A DNA stretch of 64,000 nucleotides from Acidimicrobiia bacterium. GTDB lineage: Bacteria > Actinomycetota > Acidimicrobiia > Spongiisociales > UBA11373. The translations under genes were made by a program, and so were the position numbers. This document shows, piece after piece, positions 3,980 to 55,538 of the stretch. The notes beneath the pieces were generated by a model that saw only the letters and a list, made by a program, of their open reading frames with translations, searched no databases and was not told the origin of the DNA. Location: contig CP129495.1 in NCBI GenBank assembly GCA_030584185.1, positions 124,001-188,000 of the forward strand, given 5' to 3'. Within the stretch, counting starts at the first letter, position 1, and the number at the start of each line of letters is the position of its first letter.

Positions 3980-6155
3980 CCGGCCCCAGGACGCCGTCAT
4001 GGCAGAGCTGGCCCCGGTGCTCGACGGATTCAGGACCCACTTCCCTCACGCCTCGGACAGCGTCATCCACCGCGCCTACGAGAGGGCGGCAGCCGCCCAT
4101 GCCGGGCAGCTCCGCAAGTCGGGCGAGCCCTACATCACGCACCCCCTCGCCGTGACCCAGATCCTCGCCGGGTACGGCCTCGACGCCGAGACCCTGGCGG
4201 CCTCGCTGTTGCACGACACCGTCGAGGACACCGGGCTCACCCTCGACGAGATCCGTACCGAGTTCGGCGACACCGTCGCCGGCCTCATCGACGGCGTCAC
4301 CAAGCTCGACCGGCTCCGTTACTCGTCGACCGAGGAACAGCACGCCGCAACCATCCGCAAGATGGTCATCGCCATGGCGCGCGACGTGCGCGTGCTGCTC
4401 ATCAAGCTGGCCGATCGCCTTCACAACGTGAGGACGATCAGCCCCCTCTCCAGCGAGAAGCAGCAGCGCATCGCCACCGAGACCCTCGAGGTGTACGCAC
4501 CCCTGGCACACCGTCTGGGCGTGCAGGAGATCAAGCACGAGATGGAGGACCGGTGTTTCGCCATCCTCCAGCCTCGTCGCCACGCCGAGGTGCTGGAGCT
4601 CTTGCGGGCGCGCGCACCCGAGCGCGACGCCTATCTGACGGCGGTGATCGACGAGGTACAGGCCATGCTCGGCGAGGCGGGGATCGCCGCCGAGGTGACG
4701 GGTCGACCGAAGCACGTCTACTCGATCTATCGCAAGATGGTCGATGGCGGTCGGACGTTCGACGAGATCCACGACCTGATCGGGATCCGGATCGTGGCCA
4801 AGGAGGTCGCCGACTGTTACGCCGCCCTCGGGATCGCCCACACCCGCTGGCCGCCGGTGCATGGACGGTTCAAGGATTACATCGCCATGCCCAAGTTCAA
4901 CCTCTATCAGAGCCTGCACACGACCGTGCTCGGGCCCGGCGGCCGGCCACTCGAGGTCCAGATCCGGACCCGGGAGATGCACGACCGGGCCGAGCAGGGG
5001 ATCGCCGCCCACTGGCGCTACAAGGAGGGCGGGGCCACCGAAGAGGACCTGAAGATCACCGGTGACCTTGCCGAGACCGCCGACGACTACGACAGTCCCA
5101 GTGAGTTCCTCGCCGGCCTCAAGCTGGACCTCTACCAGGACGAGGTCTTCGTGCTCACCCCGGGAGGTGCCGTGAAGACCCTCCCGCGCGGGGCCACGCC
5201 GGTAGACTTCGCCTACTCGGTGCACACCGAGGTCGGGCACCGGTGCACCGGAGCGCGGGTCAACGGTCGCCTGGTCCCGCTGAGCACCCGTCTCGAGTCG
5301 GGTGACATCGTCGAGGTGATCACTTCGAAGTCGGACTCACCCAGCCGCGACTGGCTGGGGTTCGTCCGGACCTCACGGGCGGCGGCGAAGATCCGTCAGT
5401 GGTTCAGCAGGGAGCGGCGGGAGCAGACCCTCATCGAGGGTCGGGAGCAGGTGACCCGGCTGCTGCGGCGAGAAGGTCTCGGCCTCAAGGCGGCGGAGAG
5501 GGACCGCAACCTGGCGGATGTGGCCGAGTCGCTCGGATTCAGGGACATGGATTCGATGTTCGTCGCCGTGGGCGCCGGGAACGTCCAGCCGGGCACGGTG
5601 ATCAGCCGCCTGGTGCGGCTGGTTCGTCCCGACCTGGCGACGGAGGACGACGAAGACGAGGCCGGCCTCCTTCCGGCGGCGCCGCACCGCGTGACGACGG
5701 GCGGTGTCGTGGTCGAGGGCATGGACGACATGCTGGTCAGGGTGGCCAACTGTTGCACCCCGATGCCGGGTGACGCCATCGTCGGCTTCGTGACCGTGGG
5801 CCGCGGTGTGTCGATCCATAGGGCCGACTGCACCAACGTCGGCGCCCTGGGGGATCGATCGGAGCGGATGATCGAGGTCGGCTGGTCGGCCGAGGAGTCG
5901 GGGACCTATCGCGCCGCGGTGCAGGTCGAGGCCCTCGACCGCCCGCGCCTGCTGCGAGACGTGACCACGACCCTCTCGGACCTGGGAGCGAACATCGTCT
6001 CCTCGTTCAGCGGCACCAATCGCGATCGGGTGGCCATCCTTCGGTTCGAGATCGAGCTCTCCGACGTGACCACCCTCGATCGCGCCCTGACCGAGATGAA
6101 GTCGGTCGACGGCGTCTACGACGCCTACCGGCTGCTGCCGGGGAGGACTGACTAG
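3972..6155 (+). CDS. relA: RelA/SpoT-family (p)ppGpp synthetase/hydrolase
   Basis: A 727-residue bifunctional Rsh protein that makes and degrades the stringent-response alarmone. The N-terminal HD hydrolase domain shows YITHPLAV, LLHDTVEDT and ADRLHNVRT. The synthetase domain contains RPKHVYSIYRKM and RFKDYIAMPKFNLYQSLHT. A TGS domain (DEVFVLTPGGAVKTLPRGATP) and a C-terminal ACT domain ending DAYRLLPGRTD follow. Both catalytic halves look intact, so it should hydrolyse as well as synthesise. It overlaps apt by 8 bases. The last codons run into the palindrome CTGACTAGTCAG, part of which recurs upstream of pilA. Confidence 0.96.
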   Translation: MADRPQDAVMAELAPVLDGFRTHFPHASDSVIHRAYERAAAAHAGQLRKSGEPYITHPLAVTQILAGYGLDAETLAASLLHDTVEDTGLTLDEIRTEFGDTVAGLIDGVTKLDRLRYSSTEEQHAATIRKMVIAMARDVRVLLIKLADRLHNVRTISPLSSEKQQRIATETLEVYAPLAHRLGVQEIKHEMEDRCFAILQPRRHAEVLELLRARAPERDAYLTAVIDEVQAMLGEAGIAAEVTGRPKHVYSIYRKMVDGGRTFDEIHDLIGIRIVAKEVADCYAALGIAHTRWPPVHGRFKDYIAMPKFNLYQSLHTTVLGPGGRPLEVQIRTREMHDRAEQGIAAHWRYKEGGATEEDLKITGDLAETADDYDSPSEFLAGLKLDLYQDEVFVLTPGGAVKTLPRGATPVDFAYSVHTEVGHRCTGARVNGRLVPLSTRLESGDIVEVITSKSDSPSRDWLGFVRTSRAAAKIRQWFSRERREQTLIEGREQVTRLLRREGLGLKAAERDRNLADVAESLGFRDMDSMFVAVGAGNVQPGTVISRLVRLVRPDLATEDDEDEAGLLPAAPHRVTTGGVVVEGMDDMLVRVANCCTPMPGDAIVGFVTVGRGVSIHRADCTNVGALGDRSERMIEVGWSAEESGTYRAAVQVEALDRPRLLRDVTTTLSDLGANIVSSFSGTNRDRVAILRFEIELSDVTTLDRALTEMKSVDGVYDAYRLLPGRTD

Positions 6156-6228
6156 TCAGCCAGGTTGCTCGGGAATGACGCTCAAGGCAGGGCGATCACC
6201 TCAAGCCGCCACCTCGAGTGGTCGATGA
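6150..6228 (+). promoter_or_regulatory. Minor-pilin promoter region with FliA-like core and upstream palindrome
   Basis: The core is TCAAG (6201-6205), 15 bases, then GTCGATGA (6221-6228). This resembles sigma-28/FliA/WhiG promoters (TAAAG plus GCCGATAA; family knowledge). The box ends 7 bases before a GTG at 6236, the spacing seen at leaderless genes in this window. Upstream, GACTAGTCA (6150-6158) and ATGAC (6175-6179) form an inverted GTCA/TGAC pair. The same four blocks occur before pilA, with 73 bases from the start of GACTAGTCA to the start of CGATGA in both places. The function is inferred. Confidence 0.5.
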
Positions 6229-6235
6229 CCACCAT

Positions 6236-7891
6236 GTGAGCACATCAAGCGGCTCCGCGGCGCGTCGCGCCGAAGACGGGTTCACCATCGTCGAGGCGAT
6301 GGTGGCCGTGACCGTGCTCGCCCTCGGGATCGTTCTCACCATGCAGCCCCTTCTCGGTGCCATGCATCGCGTCAACGATGCTCGCGTGGTCCTGGTGGCC
6401 GAGAACCTGGCCCAGGCCGAGGTGGAGGCGATCCGCGCCCTCGACTACGGCGACGTCGGGCTTCCCGGTCGAACCCCTTCCGGAGTCCTCACCGAGGACC
6501 GCACCATCACCGTCGAGGGCCGTGACTATCAGATCGAGGTCGATATCCGGTACGCCGGGTCGTTCACCGGGCTCACCGTCGTCCCCCAGGGCGGTGATGG
6601 CGTGCAGGGAAGCTGGGATCCGGGCGTGGACTACAAGATGGTCGTCGTCACGGTCACCGCCGAGGGGCGAGACACCGACCCCGTGGTGATGGAGACCATC
6701 GTCGCCCCCCGCCAGATCGGCGCCCACGAGGGGATCGCCAACGCCCGGGTGTATGTGGTGGCGTACGAACCGTTCGCCACGGGAGGGATGGCACTGCCGA
6801 TCCTCTCCATCCAGAATGGTGTCGGGTCGACCATCTCGTCGGCCATGTCGGCCACGGAGCAGGTGTTCCCGGCGATACCGACCGGGGCCTACACGGTGAT
6901 CCTCGGGCAGGCCAACGGATGGGTGATCCACCCCGACGACGTCGTCGCCGGGCTCACCGAGATCACGGCGGCCTCGGGGACCCTGGTGGAGACCACTCTG
7001 CGGGTGTACCGCCCGGCGACCTTGATCGCAGAGGTCGTCGATGCTTCCACGGGGTCGGCCATCGCCGACGCCCGGATCACCCTCAACCACCTGGAGAGCG
7101 GACGGATCACCTCGCTCGACGCCGGGGTCTACACCGCCGAGGGCCTGCTTCCCGGCGCCTACGACATCTCGGTGACCGCCGACGGCCACCTGCCCTGGTC
7201 GGCATCCTCGCTCAACGTGCCGGCCGGGTATCCGGATCCGGTGCATCTGCTGACCGTCGCCATGGAACCGATCGTGGTCACCACCACCACGAGCACGACG
7301 ACGACCACGGTGGCAGGCAGCACGACCACAACCACCGTGGGGGGCACCAGCACCACCACCAGCACGAGCACGACGACCACCGTGGCCGTCCCCACCGCCA
7401 CCGTGCTGGTGACGGTCCGCGACAACACCAACCGTGTGGTGAACGGCGCAACGGTCACGGCCAGCCACCCTTCGGGCGGCGAGACCGGCGGCTACACGGA
7501 CTCCCGCGGCGAGGTGCTGCTCACCCTCGAGGCCGGCGTGAGCTACACGGTCACCGCATCGACCGACTGGGGTCACGGCCCCAAGTCCGGATCGGTGACC
7601 CCTGGGTCCCAGGCGAACCTCGATCTCAAGCTCACACGCCCCTCGGGCAAGGGGACGATGGTGCTCAAGGGTGGAACCCAGGCCGAGTTCCTCTTCCGCG
7701 AGGTGGGGATCAGCACCTGGAAGGTGATGCCCAGCAGCTACCTCGGCGAGGCTTCGTTCGTGGGCTACGCCGGGACCTACGACGTGGCCAAGCGATGCCT
7801 GGCCAACGGGGCGGTCCTCGGTCAGCGGACCGCCAGCGTCGCCGCCGACCGCAACCGATCGGTCACGATCAGGGGCGGAACCTGCCCGTGA
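6236..7891 (+). CDS. PilV-like minor pilin/pseudopilin with large C-terminal region
   Basis: A protein of about 551 residues beginning with a type IV prepilin leader: a short basic segment ending EDG, cleavage before FTIVEAMVAV, Glu at +5 and a hydrophobic helix. The N-terminal part resembles PilV/GspI-class pseudopilins. It is followed by carboxypeptidase-regulatory-like beta segments (RPATLIAEVVDASTGSAIADARI and a second copy near the end) split by a Thr/Ser linker at about residues 348-384. The GTG at 6236 is preferred because a -10-like box ends 7 bases upstream; GTG 6218 lies within the promoter-like element. It overlaps the next gene by GTGA. It probably sits at the pilus tip or primes assembly. 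Confidence 0.75.
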   Translation: MSTSSGSAARRAEDGFTIVEAMVAVTVLALGIVLTMQPLLGAMHRVNDARVVLVAENLAQAEVEAIRALDYGDVGLPGRTPSGVLTEDRTITVEGRDYQIEVDIRYAGSFTGLTVVPQGGDGVQGSWDPGVDYKMVVVTVTAEGRDTDPVVMETIVAPRQIGAHEGIANARVYVVAYEPFATGGMALPILSIQNGVGSTISSAMSATEQVFPAIPTGAYTVILGQANGWVIHPDDVVAGLTEITAASGTLVETTLRVYRPATLIAEVVDASTGSAIADARITLNHLESGRITSLDAGVYTAEGLLPGAYDISVTADGHLPWSASSLNVPAGYPDPVHLLTVAMEPIVVTTTTSTTTTTVAGSTTTTTVGGTSTTTSTSTTTTVAVPTATVLVTVRDNTNRVVNGATVTASHPSGGETGGYTDSRGEVLLTLEAGVSYTVTASTDWGHGPKSGSVTPGSQANLDLKLTRPSGKGTMVLKGGTQAEFLFREVGISTWKVMPSSYLGEASFVGYAGTYDVAKRCLANGAVLGQRTASVAADRNRSVTIRGGTCP

Positions 7892-8526
7892 GGCGGCGTC
7901 TCTCCTCCGATGACGGTTTCAGCCTGGTCGAGCTGGGGGTGGCCCTGGCGCTGTCGGGAATGGTGGTCGGCACCCTCGTCAGCGTGTTCCTCTCGTTCAG
8001 CCAGAACGTCGGCGACTCGGAGCGGCGCGCCGAGCACCAGGCGCTGTCTCGCGAACTGATCGCCGAGATCGTCGTCGAGCTGCGCCAGGCGGTGAGGGCG
8101 AACCCCAACGGCGACCCGGTGGAGAGCGTCGACTCGGATCAGCTGGTGTTCTACACGACCCAGGTGGGAAGCAGCGAGCCGGTGCGCACCGTGTACGCGC
8201 GGACCGATTGCAGCGCCGGCATCTGTGAGCTCTGGGTCACCCGCTACGCCGTGGACACCTTCGCCTCCGGGGTGTACACCTTCCTCACCACGCCCAGGGA
8301 GGAGAGCTTCCTGCTCGGGGGCGTCCTCGAGGACCAGCCGCTGTTCTACGGGATCGATTGGGTGGGGGATCCCAAGGTTCAGGTGCACATCGCCTCCTGC
8401 GGCGCCCCGGTCGCCTGCGACTTCCCGCTGGTCGGGATCACGCTGCGCTCCTATCCCCTCAACACCTCGGACGGCGCCCGGCAGGTCCTCGAGATCCAGG
8501 AAGAGGTGAGGATCCGCAATGGCTAG
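7888..8526 (+). CDS. PilW/GspJ-like prepilin-type protein
   Basis: A 212-residue protein with a ten-residue basic leader ending DDG and the prepilin motif FSLVELGVALALSG, including Glu at +5. The rest is a globular pseudopilin domain with two cysteine pairs (DCSAGIC; SCGAPVAC). The GTG start overlaps the preceding stop by 4 bases and its own end overlaps the following gene by 8, so the three pseudopilin genes form a translationally coupled set. Position and motif suggest the PilW/GspJ class, but the assignment rests on the N-terminal helix and gene order only. Confidence 0.75.
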   Translation: MRRRLSSDDGFSLVELGVALALSGMVVGTLVSVFLSFSQNVGDSERRAEHQALSRELIAEIVVELRQAVRANPNGDPVESVDSDQLVFYTTQVGSSEPVRTVYARTDCSAGICELWVTRYAVDTFASGVYTFLTTPREESFLLGGVLEDQPLFYGIDWVGDPKVQVHIASCGAPVACDFPLVGITLRSYPLNTSDGARQVLEIQEEVRIRNG

Positions 8527-10114
8527 GCGCGACGAGGGATTCGCCATGATGACCGTGGTGATGGGGCTGGGGGCGATAGTTGTGCTCGCCACCGTCGTCT
8601 TCCAGGGTGCCCTGCGTGAGTACGACGGGGCCCAGTACCAGCGCCGCGACGACACGCTGATCGCCGGTGCCGAGGCCATGCTGGAGCGCTACGCCACCAA
8701 GCTCACCATCGACCCCCTCTACTACCTCTCCTGGGTGGACGAGGCCGAGCTTCCGAGGCGCTGCACCCAGAACGGCTCCTCGGGCAACGGCGACGTCGTC
8801 CAGCCCGGCAACGCCTGGTTCGACGACTGCTTCACCTGGACCTACGAGCCGCTCACCGACTACTTCTTCCACCCGCTCGTCCTGGGAGTCGCCGACAACC
8901 CGGCCGACGACGTCGGCGTGCGTATGACCGTGACGCCGCCCGAGTCGAGCGAGATCGGGGTGGGTGTGACCCTGGTGGCCACGCACGGCGAGTTCGGGCA
9001 GTCGCGCGCGGTGCAGGCTTCGGTACGCGCCGAGGCGATCAGCGAGTTCGCCTTCCTGGTCGAGGACGACCTTCGCTTCGGATCCGGGGCGAACATCCAC
9101 GGCAAGGTCTACACCGGCGGCAACCTCGACTTCGTCCAGACGCCGGACCAGGGCAGGGTTCATCGCAACGCCTACGCCGAGGGGCTCATCGGCCGGACCG
9201 CCGGATACGGCCCGCCCGAGTTCGTCTCCGGAGCGGTTGGTTACGACTCCGGCGGGACATACCAGGACATCCGAACCCAGTACCCGGACCCGCTCGACTT
9301 CACCAACTTCTGGGACGACCTGGAGATCATCCGCAACGTCGCCTGCTACCGGGACGGACTGTGCCTCTCGGCGACCAACCCTGCCCTCAACCTCGTCCAG
9401 ACGCCCACCGCCTGGCTGCTGCGCCCCACCACCAGCGGGTCCAATGCGCGGATCGAGGTCTCGGTGGCCTACTCGAACACGACCACCGGGTGCCTCACCG
9501 CCGAGGAGTGGTGGTGGTTGAACTCGCAGAACGCCGCGTGGACCCTCCTGGGGACCTACGACGTGCCACCGAGCGGCGTGGTCTGGGTGGAGGGGCACGC
9601 CGTGATCGGACAGCCCGGGGACACCTCCCGGATCGGGAGCTCGATGACGATCTACGCCGGGTCGCTGGGTGCGCCGCGCAACGTGATCCTCGCCAGCGAC
9701 ATCATCTATCAGTCGGGCACTTCGGGTACGACCGTCCTCGGCCTGATCGCCTCCGACGAGATCTGGATAAACCCATACGCCGTGGGAGGGGACGACGAGA
9801 TGACCTTCTCGGCGGCGCTGCTGGGACAGGGCGGATCACTGAACGTGGCCCGCGACTGCGGCAGCAGCGGCAGCGTGATCCTTCCCTACTCGGGCGGGGT
9901 GCCGGTGTCCACCCTCCACACCAACGGGGCCATGGCCCTGAGGGACACCGGCGACGTCGCCGCCCATTTCGGCACCCGCAACTATCAGTTCGACCAGCGC
10001 CTGGAGACCATGCGCCCACCGTTCTTCCCGTTGATGCGCGAGACCTGGACCTATCAGGAGTGGTTCGAGGTCAACCTGCCCTGCTGGGCGACGGCGGCGG
10101 GGTGCGGATCCTGA
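8519..10114 (+). CDS. PilX/GspK-like large minor pilin
   Basis: A 531-residue protein with a short leader ending DEG followed by FAMMTVVMGLG. Position +5 is Thr rather than Glu, a feature of GspK/PilX tip pseudopilins. A long extracytoplasmic part contains the phrase RFGSGANIHGKVYTGGNLDF, typical of DUF4900/PilX-type pilus proteins, several cysteines, and a Trp-rich end (TWTYQEWFEVNLPCW). It is the last gene of the minor-pilin block. Size and missing Glu5 suggest a tip or adhesin-like subunit; the specific binding role is unknown. Confidence 0.7.
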   Translation: MARRDEGFAMMTVVMGLGAIVVLATVVFQGALREYDGAQYQRRDDTLIAGAEAMLERYATKLTIDPLYYLSWVDEAELPRRCTQNGSSGNGDVVQPGNAWFDDCFTWTYEPLTDYFFHPLVLGVADNPADDVGVRMTVTPPESSEIGVGVTLVATHGEFGQSRAVQASVRAEAISEFAFLVEDDLRFGSGANIHGKVYTGGNLDFVQTPDQGRVHRNAYAEGLIGRTAGYGPPEFVSGAVGYDSGGTYQDIRTQYPDPLDFTNFWDDLEIIRNVACYRDGLCLSATNPALNLVQTPTAWLLRPTTSGSNARIEVSVAYSNTTTGCLTAEEWWWLNSQNAAWTLLGTYDVPPSGVVWVEGHAVIGQPGDTSRIGSSMTIYAGSLGAPRNVILASDIIYQSGTSGTTVLGLIASDEIWINPYAVGGDDEMTFSAALLGQGGSLNVARDCGSSGSVILPYSGGVPVSTLHTNGAMALRDTGDVAAHFGTRNYQFDQRLETMRPPFFPLMRETWTYQEWFEVNLPCWATAAGCGS

Positions 10115-20135: not shown

Positions 20136-20163
20136 TCAAGCCCGCTGACATTGCTGCCGAAAT
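20136..20163 (+). promoter_or_regulatory. FliA-like promoter of pilB
   Basis: TCAAG (20136-20140), 15 bases, then GCCGAAAT (20156-20163). The pattern and spacing match those before the minor pilin operon and pilA and resemble FliA/WhiG-type promoters. The predicted start near 20170 leaves a leader of about 30 bases with GGAGGA before the pilB GTG. The GACTAGTCA element found at the other two promoters is absent here. Confidence 0.5.
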
Positions 20164-20199: not shown

Positions 20200-21867
20200 G
20201 TGGCAGAGAGCCGTCCACTCGGATCGGTGCTGGTCGACTCGGGCATGGTGTCCGACGAGGACATGGACCGCGCCCGCGGGATTCAGGCCGAGTCCGGCGA
20301 GGCGCTGACCGAGGTCCTCGTCGATGAGGGCATCGTCGAGGAGATCGAGCTGGTACGCGCCCTGGCGCGCCACATCGGCGTCGAGTTCATCAACCTTGCC
20401 GAGAGCAACATCGATCCGGCGGCCGCCGCCCTGATCCCCGACACGCTGGCGCGTCGCTACGCGGTGATCCCGGTCGCATTCGAGGGCGAATCCCTGGTGG
20501 TCGCCATGGTCGATCCGGGCAACGTGCTCGTGCTCGACGACGTAAGGGCGATCACCGGGCGCCGGATCATCCCCAGGATCGCCACCCGCGCCGACATCGT
20601 CGATGCCATCCGGCGCCTCAGCAGGTACGACGAGTCGGTGGCCGATCTTGCCGAGCAGGTCGGCGACGATCTCACCGAGGAGGACATCGGCACCATTCAG
20701 GCGGCGGTCGACGAGGCCCCGATCGTGAAGCTGGTGAACACCCTGATCACTCGCGCGGTGAACGAACGCGCCTCCGACCTCCACATCGAACCCGGTGAGC
20801 GCGACCTGCGGGTGCGCTTCCGCATCGACGGCGTGCTCCACGAGGTGATGACCACCCCGCGGTCGGTATCCGGCGCCGTGGTGAGCAGGCTGAAGATCAT
20901 GGCCGATCTCGACATCGCCGAACGCCGCGTCCCTCAGGACGGCAGGGTGAGCCTTCGCGTCGGCGGCCGTCCCATCGACCTGCGGGTGGCCACGCTGCCT
21001 TCGATCTATGGAGAGAAGGTGGTGCTGCGAATCCTGGACAAGGACGACGCCATCCTCGGCCTCCCCGAGCTCGGGTTCCTGCCCCGCTCCCTGGAGCGGT
21101 TCTCCAAGTCGTACACCCGTCCCTACGGGGCGATCCTGGTCACCGGCCCCACCGGTTCGGGAAAGACGACGACGCTCTACGCCACGCTCGACATCCTCAA
21201 CCGCCCCGAGGTGAACATCATCACGGTCGAGGACCCGATCGAGTATCGGCTCCCCGGGATCACGCAGGTCCAGGTCCATCGCAAGGCGGGCCTGCAGTTC
21301 GCCACGGTTCTCAGGGCGATCCTGCGAAGCGACCCCGACATCGTGCTCGTGGGCGAGGTCCGGGACACCGAGACCGCCAAGATCGCCGTCGAAGCAGCCC
21401 TCACCGGGCACCTCGTGCTCTCCACCCTGCACACCAACGATGCGGCGTCGTCGATCGGTCGGCTGATCGAGATGGGCGTCGAGCCGTACCTGGTCGCCTC
21501 GGCCATCGACTCCATCCTCGCCCAGCGGCTCGCCCGGCGACTCTGCGACCGCTGCAAGGAGCCGCGGCAGGCTTCGGCCGAGATGATCGGTGAGATGGGC
21601 CTCGACCCCGCCGACGGACCGGTGACCATCCACTTTGCCACCGGTTGCAAGATGTGCGCCGACACCGGATACCGCGGCCGGGTGGCGATCAACGAGGTGC
21701 TGCTGGTTACCGAGGAGATCGAGCGCATGGCAGTGGAACGCCGCCCATCCAACGAGGTGAAGATGGTCGCCGTGGAGCAGGGGATGTCGACTCTGCGAGC
21801 CGACGGGATGGAGAAGGTCCGCCTCGGGATGACCACCCTCGAAGAGGTCCTGAGGGTGGTGGTGTGA
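20200..21867 (+). CDS. pilB: Type IV pilus assembly ATPase PilB
   Basis: A 555-residue hexameric ATPase that powers pilin polymerisation at the inner face of the membrane. Residues 5-75 form an MshEN-type domain with paired LGxxLxxxG-like halves (PLGSVLVDSGMVSDEDM; LTEVLVDEGIVEEIEL), a known c-di-GMP-binding fold. Walker A GPTGSGKTTT is near residue 316, the Asp box and Walker B (DPDIVLVGEVRD) follow, and the tetracysteine zinc motif is CDRC...CKMC. GTG start with GGAGGA 7-8 bases upstream. It is the first gene of pilB-pilT-pilC and is preceded by a FliA-like promoter. Confidence 0.95.
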   Translation: MAESRPLGSVLVDSGMVSDEDMDRARGIQAESGEALTEVLVDEGIVEEIELVRALARHIGVEFINLAESNIDPAAAALIPDTLARRYAVIPVAFEGESLVVAMVDPGNVLVLDDVRAITGRRIIPRIATRADIVDAIRRLSRYDESVADLAEQVGDDLTEEDIGTIQAAVDEAPIVKLVNTLITRAVNERASDLHIEPGERDLRVRFRIDGVLHEVMTTPRSVSGAVVSRLKIMADLDIAERRVPQDGRVSLRVGGRPIDLRVATLPSIYGEKVVLRILDKDDAILGLPELGFLPRSLERFSKSYTRPYGAILVTGPTGSGKTTTLYATLDILNRPEVNIITVEDPIEYRLPGITQVQVHRKAGLQFATVLRAILRSDPDIVLVGEVRDTETAKIAVEAALTGHLVLSTLHTNDAASSIGRLIEMGVEPYLVASAIDSILAQRLARRLCDRCKEPRQASAEMIGEMGLDPADGPVTIHFATGCKMCADTGYRGRVAINEVLLVTEEIERMAVERRPSNEVKMVAVEQGMSTLRADGMEKVRLGMTTLEEVLRVVV

Positions 21868-23444
21868 TGGAGGCTCCGGTGACCGTCCGTCAGCTCGGCC
21901 AGGCCCTGGTCGATAGGTCGGTGCTCACTCCCGAAGAGTTCGAGGCCGCCCTGCTCGCTGCACAGACCGCCGGCGTGCCCGCCGCGGTGCATCTGATCGA
22001 GTCGGGGCGGGTGAGCCGTCCGGAGGCTCTGGCCGCGGTCGCCTCCCGCCTGGGGATAGAGTTCGTCGACCTCGACGACGCCGTTCCCGAACAGATGGCA
22101 CTGCAGCGACTGTCACGCGAGGCGGCCCGTGCCGAGATGGCCCTGCCGCTTCGGATCGACGCCGGATCCCTGGTCATCGCCACCGACGATCCCCTCGACC
22201 TCGGCCGAAGGGAGCGCCTCACGCGGGCGGCGCGCAGCGACGTCACCCTGGCGCTCGCCTCGCGTTCGACACTGGTGAGGGCGATCGAGGCCGCATACGA
22301 GCCAGGCAGGCAGCCGGTCATTGCCGCCGCTCCGCCCGGACCCGCCCCCGAGAGCGCCACGCGGGTCGAATCCGGGTATCACGTGAACGACCTGCTGGCG
22401 GAACTGATCGACCAGGGCGGCTCCGACCTTCACCTTGCTGCCGGTTCGCCGCCCCAGATTCGGATCAATGGGGACCTGCAGCCGGTCGGTGACTACGAGA
22501 GGCTGCTCCCGGCGCAGATCCGTTCGCTCACCTACGCCATCCTCTCGGGGAAGCAGCGCGAGACTTTCGAGGAGAACCTGGAGCTCGACTTCTCACATCC
22601 GGTCCCCGGGAAGGGACGCTTCCGGGTCAACCTGTTCCATCAGAGGGGCTCCGTCGGAGCGGTGATGCGAGCCATTCCCAGCAGCATCCCCACGATCGAG
22701 GATCTGGGGCTGCCTCCGGTGGTGCGAGATCTGTCCGACATGCGCCGGGGCCTGGTGCTGGTGACCGGAATCACCGGATCCGGGAAGTCGACGACGCTCG
22801 CCGCCATGCTCGACGCCATCAACTCGTCCCGAGCGGCGCACATCATGACCGTCGAGGACCCGATCGAGTTCATGCACCACCACAAGATGTCGCTGGTCAA
22901 CCAGCGCGAGCTCGGCGGCGACACCCGAACCTTCGCCGAGGCCCTGCGCCGCGCACTCCGGCAGGACCCGGATGTGATCCTGGTCGGTGAGATGCGCGAC
23001 TTGGAGACCATGGCGACCGCCCTCACCGCCGCCGAGACCGGCCACCTTGTCCTGGCAACGCTGCACACCAAGGACGCCCCCGGTTCGGTGGAGCGGATCG
23101 TCGACGTGTTCCCGCCCCACCAGCAGCAGCAGATCAGGGTGCAGCTGGCGGAGAGCCTTCAGGGTGTGATCAGCCAGCAGCTGCTCCCGACGGCCGATGC
23201 CAAGGGACGGGTGGCGGCGGTCGAGATCCTGGTCGGCATCCCGGCGGTGCGGAACCTGATCCGGGAGGGCAAGGGCCATCAACTGCGCAGCGTGATGCAG
23301 ACCGGTGGCAAGCACGGCATGCAGACCATGGACGCCGATCTGGCGCGGCTGGTCCGCTCCGGAAAGGTCGATCCGACCGTCGCCACGAACCGGGCCTACA
23401 ACCCGGATGAGTTCACCAACCTCCTGGGAGGCAAGACGCGATGA
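21867..23444 (+). CDS. pilT: Pilus retraction ATPase PilT with N-terminal MshEN-like domain
   Basis: A 525-residue protein. The C-terminal ~360 residues are PilT: LIDQGGSDLHLAAGSPPQIRI, Walker A GITGSGKSTT near residue 301, Walker B DPDVILVGEMRD, HTKDAPGSVERIVDVFP and the retraction signature AVRNLIREGKGHQ. Ordinary PilT is about 345 residues. The extra ~170 residues at the N-terminus (QLGQALVDRSVLTPEEFEAAL ... ESGRVSRPEALAAVASRLGIEFVDL) look like an MshEN domain, as in PilB. The ATG shares one base with the pilB stop. Residue-level c-di-GMP binding has not been verified. Confidence 0.93.
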   Translation: MEAPVTVRQLGQALVDRSVLTPEEFEAALLAAQTAGVPAAVHLIESGRVSRPEALAAVASRLGIEFVDLDDAVPEQMALQRLSREAARAEMALPLRIDAGSLVIATDDPLDLGRRERLTRAARSDVTLALASRSTLVRAIEAAYEPGRQPVIAAAPPGPAPESATRVESGYHVNDLLAELIDQGGSDLHLAAGSPPQIRINGDLQPVGDYERLLPAQIRSLTYAILSGKQRETFEENLELDFSHPVPGKGRFRVNLFHQRGSVGAVMRAIPSSIPTIEDLGLPPVVRDLSDMRRGLVLVTGITGSGKSTTLAAMLDAINSSRAAHIMTVEDPIEFMHHHKMSLVNQRELGGDTRTFAEALRRALRQDPDVILVGEMRDLETMATALTAAETGHLVLATLHTKDAPGSVERIVDVFPPHQQQQIRVQLAESLQGVISQQLLPTADAKGRVAAVEILVGIPAVRNLIREGKGHQLRSVMQTGGKHGMQTMDADLARLVRSGKVDPTVATNRAYNPDEFTNLLGGKTR

Positions 23445-24667
23445 CCACCACCACGTTCGAGTACCGCGCCCGCGATCGCCGCGGCACCGTCCACTCCGGA
23501 GCGGTCGAGGGATCGTCCTCGGCGGCGGTCGCCAGCAGCCTGCGCGAGAAGGGTCTGGTTCCCCTCAAGATCGCCGAACGGCGCGACTCGGCTCTCCAGA
23601 AGGAGATCTCGATCCCCGGGTTCCGCAAGAAGGTGAAGCCGAAGGAAGTGGCCATCTTCAGCCGACAGCTGGCGACGATGGTCAACTCCGGGCTCACCCT
23701 GATCCGGGCCCTCTCCATCCTCGAGGAGCAGACCGACAGCCAGTTGCTCGCCGGCATCATCGGCGATGTCCGCGGCCAGGTGGAGCGGGGAAGCTCGCTG
23801 TCCGTGGCGTTGGAATCTCATCCCCAGGTCTTCAACCACCTCTACGTCTCCATGATCCGCGCCGGCGAGGTCGGTGGTGCCCTCGACGAGACCCTGGTGC
23901 GAATCGCCGACACCCTCGAGGCTGCGGTGCGCCTGCGCTCCAAGGTGAAGTCGGCGATGGCCTACCCCGTGGTGGTGCTGGTGCTGATCGTGCTGATCGT
24001 CGCCGGGATGATGCTGTTCGTGGTGCCCATCTTCGAGAACATGTACGCCGATCTGGGCGGCTCGCTGCCACTGCCCACCCAGGTGCTGATCGGGATCTCG
24101 GGGATACTCACCACCTTCTGGTGGGTGTTCGTGGCCCTGACCGCGGGTGCCGTGTTCCTGTTCCGGCGGTGGAAGGCGACCCCCGAGGGGCGCTATGCAT
24201 GGGACAAGCTGAAGCTGAGGCTTCCCATCTTCGGGAAGGTGGTGCAGAAGATCGCCATCAGCCGCTTCGCCCGGACCTTCTCCGTGCTCAGCCGCACGGG
24301 AGTGCCCGTGCTCCAGGCACTGGACATCGTGTCGGTCACCTCGGGCAACGCCCTCGTGGGTCGCGCCATCGACGAGGTCAAGCTCTCGGTGAAGCGAGGC
24401 GAGTCGCTGGCCGGCCCACTGCAGCGCCATGACGTCTTCTCGCCGATGGTGGTCCACATGATGGCGGTGGGCGAGGAGACCGGGGCAATCGACACCATGC
24501 TCTCCAAGGTCGCCGACTTCTACGACCAGGAGGTCGACGACACGGTGAGCGCCCTGACCTCGCTCATCGAGCCGCTGCTCATCGTCGTGATGGGTGTGGT
24601 CGTGGGCGGGATCCTCATCTCCCTCTACCTCCCGATGTTCAACATCGCCAACCTGATCCAGAGCTGA
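23441..24667 (+). CDS. pilC: Type IV pilus inner-membrane platform protein PilC
   Basis: A 408-residue GspF/PilC-family membrane protein that couples the PilB and PilT motors to pilin insertion. Two homologous T2SSF domains are visible: EVAIFSRQLATMVNSGLTLIRAL with VYVSMIRAGEVGGALDE-like sequence, and ISRFARTFSVLSRTGVPVLQALDIV with MVVHMMAVGEETGAID. TM segments lie at about residues 168-190, 208-232 and 375-398. The N-terminal FEYRARDRRG is typical. ATGA overlap with pilT shows coupling. A hairpin follows 29 bases after the stop. Confidence 0.95.
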   Translation: MTTTTFEYRARDRRGTVHSGAVEGSSSAAVASSLREKGLVPLKIAERRDSALQKEISIPGFRKKVKPKEVAIFSRQLATMVNSGLTLIRALSILEEQTDSQLLAGIIGDVRGQVERGSSLSVALESHPQVFNHLYVSMIRAGEVGGALDETLVRIADTLEAAVRLRSKVKSAMAYPVVVLVLIVLIVAGMMLFVVPIFENMYADLGGSLPLPTQVLIGISGILTTFWWVFVALTAGAVFLFRRWKATPEGRYAWDKLKLRLPIFGKVVQKIAISRFARTFSVLSRTGVPVLQALDIVSVTSGNALVGRAIDEVKLSVKRGESLAGPLQRHDVFSPMVVHMMAVGEETGAIDTMLSKVADFYDQEVDDTVSALTSLIEPLLIVVMGVVVGGILISLYLPMFNIANLIQS

Positions 24668-24728: not shown

Positions 24729-24807
24729 GACTAGTCACCTCGTTCCACGAGATGACACCCGCTTCCGTCAGAAGTGCCTCAAGTGGCGGCCACGGTCGCG
24801 CCGATGA
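24729..24807 (+). promoter_or_regulatory. pilA promoter region: GACTAGTCA element plus FliA-like core
   Basis: The core is TCAAG (24779-24783), 16 bases, then GCCGATGA (24800-24807). Upstream are GACTAGTCA (24729-24737) and ATGAC (24752-24756). GTCA (24734-24737) and TGAC (24753-24756) are the outer arms of an imperfect inverted repeat whose inner arms are CTCG/CGAG. The same blocks at the same overall distance precede the minor pilin operon. The predicted start is near 24814, giving a leader of about 47 bases. Confidence 0.5.
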
Positions 24808-24860: not shown

Positions 24861-25325
24861 ATGCTGAAGACCATTCGTCGGGCCATGCGCCGCGACGAGG
24901 GGTTCACGCTCATCGAGCTCATGGTCGTGGTGATGATCATTGCAGTCCTCATCGCCATCGCCATTCCGTCGTTCCTCGGGTTCCGTAGCTCGGCCCAGGA
25001 TCGTTCGGCACAGAGCGAAGTGCGCAACGTGCTCCTCGCCGAGAAGGCCTACTGGCTGGACAACGGCGACTACACCGAGACGGCGGCCAACATCACCGCG
25101 TTCGAGCCGAACGCAGTGATCAACGCCAGCCCGGCTCTCGGCGTGTACCTCGACCTAAACGCGGCGAGCGCAGACGTCGTCTGCATCACCCGCCAGTCCG
25201 ACTCGGGGAACTTCTTCTCCGTGTGGGAGAGCGCCACGGCCGGCACGTTCTACGGGGCGACCGACCTCAGCGCCGCAGCCTGCCCGGCTGCTGCACCTGA
25301 CGCTTACGCCCAGGGCGGCTGGTAA
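24861..25325 (+). CDS. pilA: Major type IV pilin PilA
   Basis: A 154-residue prepilin. The leader MLKTIRRAMRRDEG is cleaved before FTLIELMVVVMIIAVLIAIAIPSFLG, with Glu at +5 and the Pro kink typical of type IVa pilins. The globular domain has a YWLDNGDYT region and two cysteines, VVCITR and AACPAA, that could form the C-terminal D-loop disulfide. ATG 24861 has a strong Shine-Dalgarno (AGGAGG, 24847-24852). It is probably transcribed alone: its own promoter lies upstream and a perfect 13-bp hairpin follows. Confidence 0.95.
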   Translation: MLKTIRRAMRRDEGFTLIELMVVVMIIAVLIAIAIPSFLGFRSSAQDRSAQSEVRNVLLAEKAYWLDNGDYTETAANITAFEPNAVINASPALGVYLDLNAASADVVCITRQSDSGNFFSVWESATAGTFYGATDLSAAACPAAAPDAYAQGGW

Positions 25326-25465: not shown

Positions 25466-26230
25466 ATGATCATTTGGGGAGCGGCCTTCGCCGGGCTCCT
25501 GATCGGCAGCTACGTGAACGTGGTCGCCCACCGCGTTCCGCTCGGCAAGGGCGTGGTGCGGTCGCGCTCCGAGTGTCCGGAGTGCGGCCACGAGATCGCT
25601 GCCGGCGACAACATCCCTCTGGTCTCGTTCCTACTGCTCCGGGGCCGCTGCCGGCACTGCGGGAAGCCGATATCGCTGCGGTACCCGGCCGTCGAGGCAG
25701 GCACCGCGATCGCGTTCGGCCTCGTCGCCTGGCTCATTGGGCCGTCGTGGGTGCTTCCCGCCTATCTGTGGGCAACCGCAGTCGTCGTCGCCCTGGTGGT
25801 CACCGACCTGACCCACCGTCGCATCCCCAACCGGATCCTGTACCCCGGCGTGGCAGTGGGCACGGCTCTACTCGCCGCCGGCGCCGCGCTGGAGGGGGAG
25901 ATCGGCGCCCTGGGCCGGGCGTTGATCGGTGGCGGCGCCTACTTCGGAGGTCTGCTGCTACTGGCGATAGCGGCACGAGGAGGCTTCGGGTTCGGCGATG
26001 TCAAGCTGGCGTTCCTCCTCGGCGAGTTCACGGCCTATCGGTCTTGGGGCGCGCTGCTCACTGCGGTCATGGGCGGGTTCGCGGTCGGAGGGCTGATCGG
26101 AATCCTGCTGCTCCTGGCGCGACGCGTGGGCAGGAAGGACGTGATCGCCTTCGGCCCGGCGATGACCCTGGGCGCCGCCATCGGGCTCGGGTTCGGTGAG
26201 GCTATCTCCTCCTGGTATCTGGGCCTGTGA
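25466..26230 (+). CDS. pilD: Prepilin peptidase/N-methyltransferase PilD
   Basis: A 254-residue polytopic aspartic protease that cuts prepilin leaders after Gly and N-methylates the new N-terminus. The N-terminal part has GSYVNVVAHRVP and the zinc-like CPEC...CRHC pairs. The protease aspartates lie in VVTDLTHRRIPN and GFGDVKLA (GxGDxK). About seven hydrophobic segments are present. The start has a good Shine-Dalgarno (GAGGAGG). It should process PilA and the three minor pilins in the window. A PilD homologue between aroE and aroC is also found in mycobacteria (recalled knowledge). Confidence 0.95.
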   Translation: MIIWGAAFAGLLIGSYVNVVAHRVPLGKGVVRSRSECPECGHEIAAGDNIPLVSFLLLRGRCRHCGKPISLRYPAVEAGTAIAFGLVAWLIGPSWVLPAYLWATAVVVALVVTDLTHRRIPNRILYPGVAVGTALLAAGAALEGEIGALGRALIGGGAYFGGLLLLAIAARGGFGFGDVKLAFLLGEFTAYRSWGALLTAVMGGFAVGGLIGILLLLARRVGRKDVIAFGPAMTLGAAIGLGFGEAISSWYLGL

Positions 26231-26418: not shown

Positions 26419-27522
26419 ATGTCGGTGACGGTCGGGCTCGACATCGGGTCGGAGGCGGTGCGCGCCGCAGTGGTGGAGACCGCCAAGTCGGGCGCAGTGC
26501 TGAGGCGCTTCGCCGAGATGCCGTTGCCCCCGGGCGCCGTTCGGGCAGGAGACATCGCCGACGAGGACGCCGTGACCGAGGTCGTGGCCGCACTCTGGAA
26601 GCGAAACCGGTTGCCGCGCAAGCGCGTGGTCGTCGGCATCGGCAACCAGCGCGTGATCGTCCGCCAGGTGGAGGTCACCCACCTGGAGGAGGACGAGATG
26701 GCGGATGCCCTTCCCTTCCAGGTTCAGGACGCCATTCCCATTCCCGTAGAGGACGCCGTCCTGGACTTCGTGCCCCTCGAGGAGTACACCACTCCCGAGG
26801 GCGACCTGATGATGTCCATCCTCGTAGTGGCCGCCCAGCGGGACATGGTCGAAGGCCTGGTGCGAGTGGCCACCGGTGCCGGTCTCGGCGTGCTGGCCAT
26901 CGATCTCCAGGCGTTCGGCTTGGTCCGAGCCGCATTCGGCACCGACCTGCTCGAAGGCGGCGACGGACCACAGGCGCTGCTCGACATCGGGGCGTCGATG
27001 TCCCAGGTGGCGATAGTGCGCGGTGGGATCACCCGTTTCGTGCGGATCCTTCCGACCGGCGGGGAGCACTTCACCGAGACCTTGATGACCGGCATGTCAC
27101 TCAGTCGCGAGGACGCAGAGGCGATGAAGCGGCGTGTCGGAGTCGTCCCGGAAGGTGCGGTTGCAGGGGATGACGAAGAGTCGCTGGCCCGGCGCATCCT
27201 CACCCGGACGGCGGACGCCCTGATCGACGAGATCCAGGGTTCCATCAACTACTACCTGACGCAGGCGGGGGAGCACGCCCTGGAGCGTCTGGTGATCTCG
27301 GGAAACGGCGCACGCCTTCCGCACCTGGCCAACCGTCTGGGACGCACACTGGCCACGCGGGTGGAGCCGGTGCGGGTACTGGACCAGGTGGCCGTGGGCA
27401 GGCTGCAGATGACCGAGGCCGACCTGCTCGCCCTGCAGCCCGTCCTTCCCGCCGCCGTCGGGCTCGCCCTGTGGGGCTCCTTCGTGGTGCCGCCTACGAA
27501 CCGATTCGCCCATGTCGCCTAG
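26419..27522 (+). CDS. pilM: Type IV pilus assembly protein PilM
   Basis: A 367-residue actin-like ATPase that links the cytoplasmic motor to PilN/PilO. The N-terminal phosphate-1 motif is VTVGLDIGSEAVRAAVVE, followed by VVVGIGNQRVIVRQVEV, the phosphate-2 region LLDIGASMSQVAIVRGG and the adenosine motif LVISGNGARLPHL. ATG at 26419 with GGAGAG upstream. pilM-pilN-pilO-pilP is the standard alignment-complex order. Ten bases separate it from pilN. Confidence 0.93.
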   Translation: MSVTVGLDIGSEAVRAAVVETAKSGAVLRRFAEMPLPPGAVRAGDIADEDAVTEVVAALWKRNRLPRKRVVVGIGNQRVIVRQVEVTHLEEDEMADALPFQVQDAIPIPVEDAVLDFVPLEEYTTPEGDLMMSILVVAAQRDMVEGLVRVATGAGLGVLAIDLQAFGLVRAAFGTDLLEGGDGPQALLDIGASMSQVAIVRGGITRFVRILPTGGEHFTETLMTGMSLSREDAEAMKRRVGVVPEGAVAGDDEESLARRILTRTADALIDEIQGSINYYLTQAGEHALERLVISGNGARLPHLANRLGRTLATRVEPVRVLDQVAVGRLQMTEADLLALQPVLPAAVGLALWGSFVVPPTNRFAHVA

Positions 27523-27531
27523 GAGCATGCC

Positions 27532-28146
27532 GTGAGGCCGATCAACCTGCTGCCGCCCGAGGTCGCAAGGGAGAGGTCCCGTCGCCGCAAGGTGGCCCTC
27601 GGCGTGGTGGCGTTCTTGGCCTATCTGGTGCTGCTCGGCGTGGGCGTCTTCTACTGGAGCGGAAAGGTGTCGACTGCCGCCGAGGAGCGCGACGCCCAAC
27701 TGGTGATCAATCGAGACCTGGAGCGGCGTGTCGCCGCTCTCGGCGAGAGTGCTCAGATCCAACAGGACTTCGAGGCCCGGGCCACGTTGGTCCGCACCGC
27801 CCTGGAGGTGGACGTCGACTGGGGGATCCTGCTCAACGACCTTGCCCGTCTGATCCCGCCGAGGGTGTGGGTGGAGACCTTCAACGGTCGTGTGGAGGCT
27901 TCGACCATCCCGGGACTGCTCGGCCAGGTGTCGTTCAGCGGCGTCGGCTTTTCGTTCCCGGACGTGTCCGAGTGGCTGCGATCGCTGGACTCGACCGAGT
28001 TCGCCGGCCTCACCGCAGGATGGGTGAGCACGGTGTCGCAGGGCGTCATCGGTGAGGAGGAGGTCGTCACCTTCTCATCGACGGCGGTGCTGACCGATCG
28101 GGCGGCCTCGGACCGAGCCGATAGCCTGATCCCGGAGGTGCCGTGA
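27532..28146 (+). CDS. pilN: Type IV pilus assembly protein PilN
   Basis: A 204-residue bitopic membrane protein. The cytoplasmic N-terminus RPINLLPPEV is the PilN motif that binds the PilM groove. A single TM segment (about residues 21-42) is followed by a coiled-coil stretch and a ferredoxin-like periplasmic-type domain. GTG start. The last base of the stop is shared with the pilO ATG. Confidence 0.92.
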   Translation: MRPINLLPPEVARERSRRRKVALGVVAFLAYLVLLGVGVFYWSGKVSTAAEERDAQLVINRDLERRVAALGESAQIQQDFEARATLVRTALEVDVDWGILLNDLARLIPPRVWVETFNGRVEASTIPGLLGQVSFSGVGFSFPDVSEWLRSLDSTEFAGLTAGWVSTVSQGVIGEEEVVTFSSTAVLTDRAASDRADSLIPEVP

Positions 28147-28760
28147 TGAAGCGCAACCTCCTGCTCGCCGTGCTCGGCGTACTCCTCATCACGGTGCTGT
28201 GGTGGATGTTCCTCATCAGCCCCCGCAACGGCGAGATCGCCGATCTGGAGCGCGAGACGTTCGCGGCGGTGGACACCGAACAGAGGCTGCGGGTGCAGAT
28301 CGTGCAGTTGGAGGAGATCAGCGAGAGCGAGGACGAGTACGTCGAGGCGCTCGACTCGCTAGCCGCATTGATTCCCACCGAGCCGGAACTGGACGAGTTC
28401 ATCGAGGACATCGATGCCCTCGCCCAGGCGACCAGCGTCGACCTGCTGACCCTGGCGCCGTCAACCCCTGCGGCACCGGTGTCCGAGACCAGCACCCTTC
28501 GCGACATCCTGGTGTCCTGCGAGATCGAGGGGGAGTTCTTCGAGATCCTCGGGTTCCTCTTCGGGCTCACCGACATGGAGCGCCTGGTGCGCGTCGATGC
28601 GGTGTCGCTGTCTTCGAGTGAGTCCGAGACGGGTGCGATCATCATCTCGGCGGGTCTCGAGCTTCGCCTCTTCACGCTCAGCGGCTTGATCCCCGCCGAA
28701 GGTGCGGAGGGGGCTGCCTCCGCCCCCGAGCCCGATGACGGGGGAGGCGACACACCATGA
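28146..28760 (+). CDS. pilO: Type IV pilus assembly protein PilO
   Basis: A 204-residue protein with one N-terminal TM segment (about residues 4-24), a coiled coil rich in Glu (DLERETFAAVDTEQRLRVQIVQLEE) and a globular domain ending in an acidic Gly-rich tail. Topology, size and position after PilN identify PilO, which forms heterodimers with PilN. An in-frame GTG three bases earlier is an alternative start; the TGATG overlap favours ATG 28146. It overlaps the next gene by ATGA. Confidence 0.85.
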   Translation: MKRNLLLAVLGVLLITVLWWMFLISPRNGEIADLERETFAAVDTEQRLRVQIVQLEEISESEDEYVEALDSLAALIPTEPELDEFIEDIDALAQATSVDLLTLAPSTPAAPVSETSTLRDILVSCEIEGEFFEILGFLFGLTDMERLVRVDAVSLSSSESETGAIIISAGLELRLFTLSGLIPAEGAEGAASAPEPDDGGGDTP

Positions 28761-55346: not shown

Positions 55347-55443
55347 GCCCGGCGGCGCCCGGCGGCAGCGGTCGGCGGAGGGCCAGGGGGGAGGTCAAGG
55401 CGACCCTGAGAGACGCCGATGAAGACGGTGGTCGATACCCGTC

Positions 55444-55471: not shown

Positions 55472-55538
55472 CACGGTTCCGCCGAGGTGACGCGTCCTGC
55501 GCGTCCGTCGTCGGCGTCAGTATCCCGGCTCCTTGACA

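Follow-up and report, generated by a model that had tools for sequence, protein, structure and literature searches.

Sigma factors of the FliA/WhiG family are best known from flagella and spores, and RsiG is the c-di-GMP-dependent anti-sigma factor of WhiG. Pili have entered this picture through Rubrobacter radiotolerans, in which mapped transcription starts show that the pilus cluster and DGC/PDE genes have WhiG promoters, and in which RsiG is a single-motif, homodimeric protein (PNAS 2021, PMC8325347). Twin-motif RsiG is listed there in Streptomyces and others, including Acidimicrobiales, and the passages of that paper on this form give no function for it in Acidimicrobiales; the paper also cites control of a FliA/WhiG-like kind over both type IV pili and flagella in Actinoplanes missouriensis (PMC8325347). 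The genome studied here has in common with Rubrobacter, including R. xylanophilus, predicted WhiG-type promoters at type IV pilus units and at c-di-GMP enzyme genes, as well as the presence of both RsiG and WhiG (PMC8325347). Unlike the Rubrobacter system as described there, with its experimentally mapped starts, it has a twin-motif RsiG and -35 boxes that are mostly TCAAG, its promoters are predicted from sequence, and its predicted regulon adds a Flp pilin and CWB2 proteins (PMC8325347). A. missouriensis has flagella and lacks RsiG, whereas here FlhA is absent and RsiG is present (PMC8325347). With the RsiG-WhiG sporulation switch of Streptomyces, this genome shares a WhiG orthologue and a full-length twin-motif RsiG, but WhiG is predicted to serve pili and surface proteins here instead of sporulation regulators. 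WhiG-type control of pili is known from Rubrobacter, and what we describe is predicted control of the same kind in another lineage, with a twin-motif RsiG.

The window, that is, the whole stretch of 64,000 bp that was analysed (C1:124001-188000 of a 2.21-Mb genome), contains a type IV pilus set that is confirmed by Pfam, with pilin, PilB ATPase, PilC, PilD and PilMNO, all encoded on the + strand. The pilB extension ATPase, which has an MshEN domain (20200-21867), is followed by a second type II/IV secretion ATPase with an MshEN domain (21864-23444), the platform protein pilC (23441-24667), the major type IV pilin pilA (24861-25325; N_methyl PF07963 in an overlapping ORF, with orthologues in relatives), the prepilin peptidase pilD (25466-26230) and pilM, pilN and pilO (26419-28760). 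A minor pilin operon, assigned by Pfam and with an N-methylation motif in its first gene, lies at 6236-10114 (+). The earlier note had placed TCAAG-N15/16-GYCGAWRA-like sites before pilA, pilB and this operon, and all three are indeed there. The putative WhiG/sigma-28-type promoter of pilA, TCAAG-N16-GCCGATGA at 24779-24807 (+), is read directly and kept in relatives; its last base lies 53 bp upstream of the ATG at 24861. That of the pilB unit, TCAAG-N15-GCCGAAAT at 20136-20163 (+), is also read directly and ends 36 bp upstream of the GTG at 20200. That of the minor pilin operon, TCAAG-N15-GTCGATGA at 6201-6228 (+), ends 7 bp upstream of an in-frame GTG at 6236; as this codon is 8 nt past the last -10 base, the transcript of the operon is probably leaderless. 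The sites combine a TAAA-like -35 box and a GCCGATAA-like -10 box at a spacing of about 15 bp; counted from TCAA, they read TCAA(G)-N16/17, so the spacer is about 1 bp longer than the TAAA-N15 of FliA/WhiG-dependent promoters.

The earlier note had not found the pattern at the housekeeping starts that it inspected. Two further matches do occur at housekeeping genes of the window, between the rRNA operon and a tyrosyl-tRNA-synthetase-like gene: one at 55395-55422 (+), 5' of the former, and one at 55508-55536 (-), 5' of the latter. The motif is thus tied to pili strongly, not exclusively. These two TCAAG-N15/16-GCCGA sites lie outside any pilus context and could be due to chance; an apparent sigma-70 promoter, TTGACG-N17-TAGGAT, is found directly 3' of the first.

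Chance is also a conceivable reading of the three pilus sites themselves: in a GC-rich genome, short boxes could have been picked out because pilus genes had been noticed beside them, and TCAAG-N14..17-GYCGA is in fact common within genes (89 matches; reversed control, 46). However, the motif stands out from the background when the -10 box is extended, with 25 matches to TCAAG-N11..20-GYCGATG in the whole genome against 3 for the reversed control. The spacer is N15 or N16 in 11 of these 25 and never N13, N14 or N18, a concentration that departs from an even spread (binomial P 0.006). With genes around the N15/N16 TCAAG-GYCGA sites modelled by a simple codon-usage caller, the 11 TCAAG-N15/16-GYCGATG sites all fall in intergenic DNA or at gene starts, with 89% of the sampled DNA being coding, whereas N15/N16 sites with other continuations are mostly intragenic and sites with other spacers are scattered. 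It is the right spacing and the following T together that give this observed placement, which includes pilins outside the window.

Two of the 11 sites are those of the window's pilin units, pilA and the minor pilin operon; the pilB site (GCCGAAAT) does not belong to this stricter set. The others precede a further type IV pilin (PF07963; C1:792919), a Flp/Fap pilin (PF04964; C1:932479), two CWB2-repeat proteins (C1:1173462 and 1179332), a probably secreted protein followed by a CWB2 protein (C1:457252), another apparently secreted protein (C1:891758) and a MoxR-type operon (C1:353096); one is more distant from its gene (C1:303304) and one lies 5' of the rRNA operon. In addition, a regular-expression scan of a sampled third of the genome found one GGDEF gene, confirmed by Pfam, with a sigma-28-type promoter, TAAA-N15-GCCGATTG, a few bases 5' of its ATG. 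The proposal of a type IV pilus regulon is supported for the pilus promoters but not in its restriction to type IV pili, since a Flp pilin, CWB2 proteins and a cyclase are predicted targets too. A WhiG regulon that is wider than type IV pili and reaches other surface proteins is a new prediction of this analysis.

The comparison of pilus promoters in related genomes, which the earlier note had suggested, shows that the sites are kept. TCAAG-N15-GCCGA is invariant 5' of pilB in each of the 12 family genomes whose upstream DNA is intact, boxes and spacer length alike, and the 15-bp spacers of these sites have an identity of only 37%. In the order as a whole, 29 of 33 genomes from six families (counted by eye) have a comparable site in front of the pil unit, one of them with GCCGT; in most genomes of family f8, TCAAG is replaced by TAAAG, which is the canonical -35 box of sigma-28-type promoters. 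No recognisable pil-unit site was seen in the other four of these 33, which belong to families f5 and f6. Of 23 genomes compared 5' of pilA, 19 have a similar site, many requiring a mismatch or TCAAC/TTAAG, with a perfect GCCGATAA being frequent, and no site is recognisable at the pilA genes of the remaining 4. Counterparts at the relatives' minor pilin operons are looser, with TCAAC or TCAAG combined with ACCGA, GTCGA or GCCGA. Conservation of this kind over several families refutes a chance origin, to which we give almost no credence; on these comparisons, the three window sites are not chance matches.

A sigma factor able to read such boxes had been postulated, and a search for it finds a FliA/WhiG gene at C1:2138950-2139621, which scores 275.2 bits with TIGR02479 against a cut-off of 189.6. 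Compared with solved structures, its product is closest to Streptomyces WhiG (6pfj, 1e-84), ahead of FliA (6pmi, 2.8e-45). The lack of a flagellar context noted for the window extends to the whole genome and its family, as FlhA (PF00771) has no match in this genome (G000) or in any family member. Relatives with flagella have an additional FliA-like gene that scores lower, in several of them near flhA; because of this separate gene, and because Streptomyces WhiG is nearest, the name WhiG is preferred over FliA. Across the 79 genomes compared, WhiG is present in all 43 that have PilB, and PilB is absent from all 14 that lack WhiG, an observed association in which the genomes share ancestry and do not each count as independent evidence, so that P values calculated for it exaggerate their independence. 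Motif density is 3.9/Mb in WhiG-positive genomes (control 0.42) and 1.3/Mb in WhiG-negative genomes (control 0.64), where most of the excess is gone.

It is improbable that the boxes are read by a different alternative sigma factor, such as a second FliA-like, SigB/F-type or ECF factor, with WhiG serving other genes. The genome does encode further sigma factors that match the model, and WhiG is retained in 22 genomes without PilB, so that pili cannot be its sole target. However, these further factors score below the cut-off, which leaves a single member above it, the motif excess drops in genomes without WhiG, and it is the FliA/WhiG family that recognises GCCGATAA combined with TAAAG/TCAAG. 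Control of the type IV pili by a FliA/WhiG-family sigma factor, as the earlier note had predicted, is thus supported by the presence of the gene and by a motif above background, and reading of the promoters by the WhiG holoenzyme is, at the level of sequence, strongly supported. In 17 genomes (G015, G028, G029, G034, G035, G041, G049, G054 and others), WhiG occurs with neither PilB nor FlhA matches; the motif is still above control in these.

A dyad is another way to read two short boxes with constant spacing: they could be the half-sites of a transcription factor, with transcription starting from nearby sigma-70 promoters. This is marginally less probable still than another sigma factor: the two boxes are not repeats of one another, the start codon of several targets lies at a leaderless distance past the -10 box, and presence of the motif tracks WhiG. 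What could speak for such a factor is that another regulator is probably active at the pilin promoters, albeit through a separate palindrome. This palindrome, GACTAGTC, is found at 6150-6157 (inside CTGACTAGTCAG), about 50 bp 5' of the minor pilin -35 box, and at 24729-24736, about 49 bp 5' of that of pilA. Of 10 genomes, 7 have it 5' of the minor pilin promoter, and in this genome it also precedes pilA. The sequence is rare: every one of its 8 occurrences in 803 kb of pilus and WhiG loci is upstream of a pilin promoter, and 752 kb of this genome contain three, the third of which overlaps the GGDEF gene at its start (L288:13957). The distances to the -35 box are 29-30, 39, 48-49 and 61 bp, and a rough test of periodicity, applied once these distances were known, gives P 0.0008, which rises to 0.03 when similar distances are collapsed. 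We regard GACTAGTC as a new element and a candidate regulator site.

The WhiG reading is completed by the anti-sigma factor. An ORF at C1:1622190-1622651 has two PF22802 matches over the cut-off (51.3 and 39.6 bits), corresponding to a twin-motif RsiG, and aligns over residues 19-177 to the solved Streptomyces RsiG (6pfj_T, 1.3e-11). A bare DNA pattern for the RsiG motif had given one other match, which was judged to be due to chance, as prolines fall within the supposed coiled coil; the Pfam candidate, at a different locus, is better. RsiG is present in 61 of 65 WhiG-positive genomes and in none of the 14 WhiG-negative ones. Relative to the c-di-GMP motif E(X)3S(X)2R(X)3Q(X)3D, the two repeats read D-x3-S-x2-R-x3-H-x3-D and E-x3-S-x2-R-x3-H-x3-D: the spacing of S, R and D is intact, and the glutamine is replaced by a histidine in both, which suggests that ligand binding may differ. 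Across the order, this residue is a histidine in repeat 1 of every RsiG copy read (L144:1459-2001; L146-L175) and either a glutamine or a histidine in repeat 2.

We consider it very probable that the motifs are WhiG promoters of pilus and surface genes, with RsiG and c-di-GMP likely to gate WhiG. Through WhiG, RNA polymerase would recognise the type IV pilus units by a -35 box of TCAAG, a variant of TAAAG, and a -10 box of GYCGATRA; the same sigma factor very likely also transcribes the other type IV pilin, the Flp pilin, several secreted cell-wall-binding (CWB2) proteins and the diguanylate cyclase. At high c-di-GMP, the twin-motif RsiG most likely binds WhiG and keeps it inactive; a drop in c-di-GMP would release it, so that pili and surface proteins would be made in the low-c-di-GMP state, and the cyclase could feed back on the switch. 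Recognition of the motif by WhiG is predicted from homology, as are RsiG-WhiG binding and control by c-di-GMP, and we hold the RsiG and c-di-GMP steps to be likely, by a fair distance.

A c-di-GMP-controlled sigma switch for pili would thereby reach beyond Rubrobacter and be a pattern shared across an order of another actinobacterial lineage, with the form of RsiG so far tied to Streptomyces sporulation and with a list of predicted targets (pilins, Flp pilin, CWB2 proteins and diguanylate cyclase). As the pilus switch comes with a Streptomyces-type RsiG, a pre-sporulation role of WhiG-RsiG becomes directly testable. We tentatively propose, with somewhat less than even confidence, that the early role of WhiG-RsiG was in type IV pili and other surface fibres and was retained, as in this order, after duplication had given the twin-motif RsiG, and that a second regulator, which binds GACTAGTC at approximately helical-turn intervals 5' of pilin promoters, adds a further input.

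The genes around whiG are arranged as xer-whiG-rpsB, both here and in every one of the 13 relatives for which the stretch taken includes the two neighbours, and whiG of Streptomyces is likewise near rpsB. CpaF/TadA-like and TadC-like genes lie immediately 5' of xer-whiG in this genome (L213:12-3441). A tad operon driven by WhiG and ending in whiG was considered and rejected: tadC is beside xer-whiG only in this genome and G007, and no strong motif site is present upstream of the tad/xer-whiG genes. Apart from the xer-whiG locus, a WhiG-type promoter is found at a solitary Flp pilin gene (L192:3040-3180).
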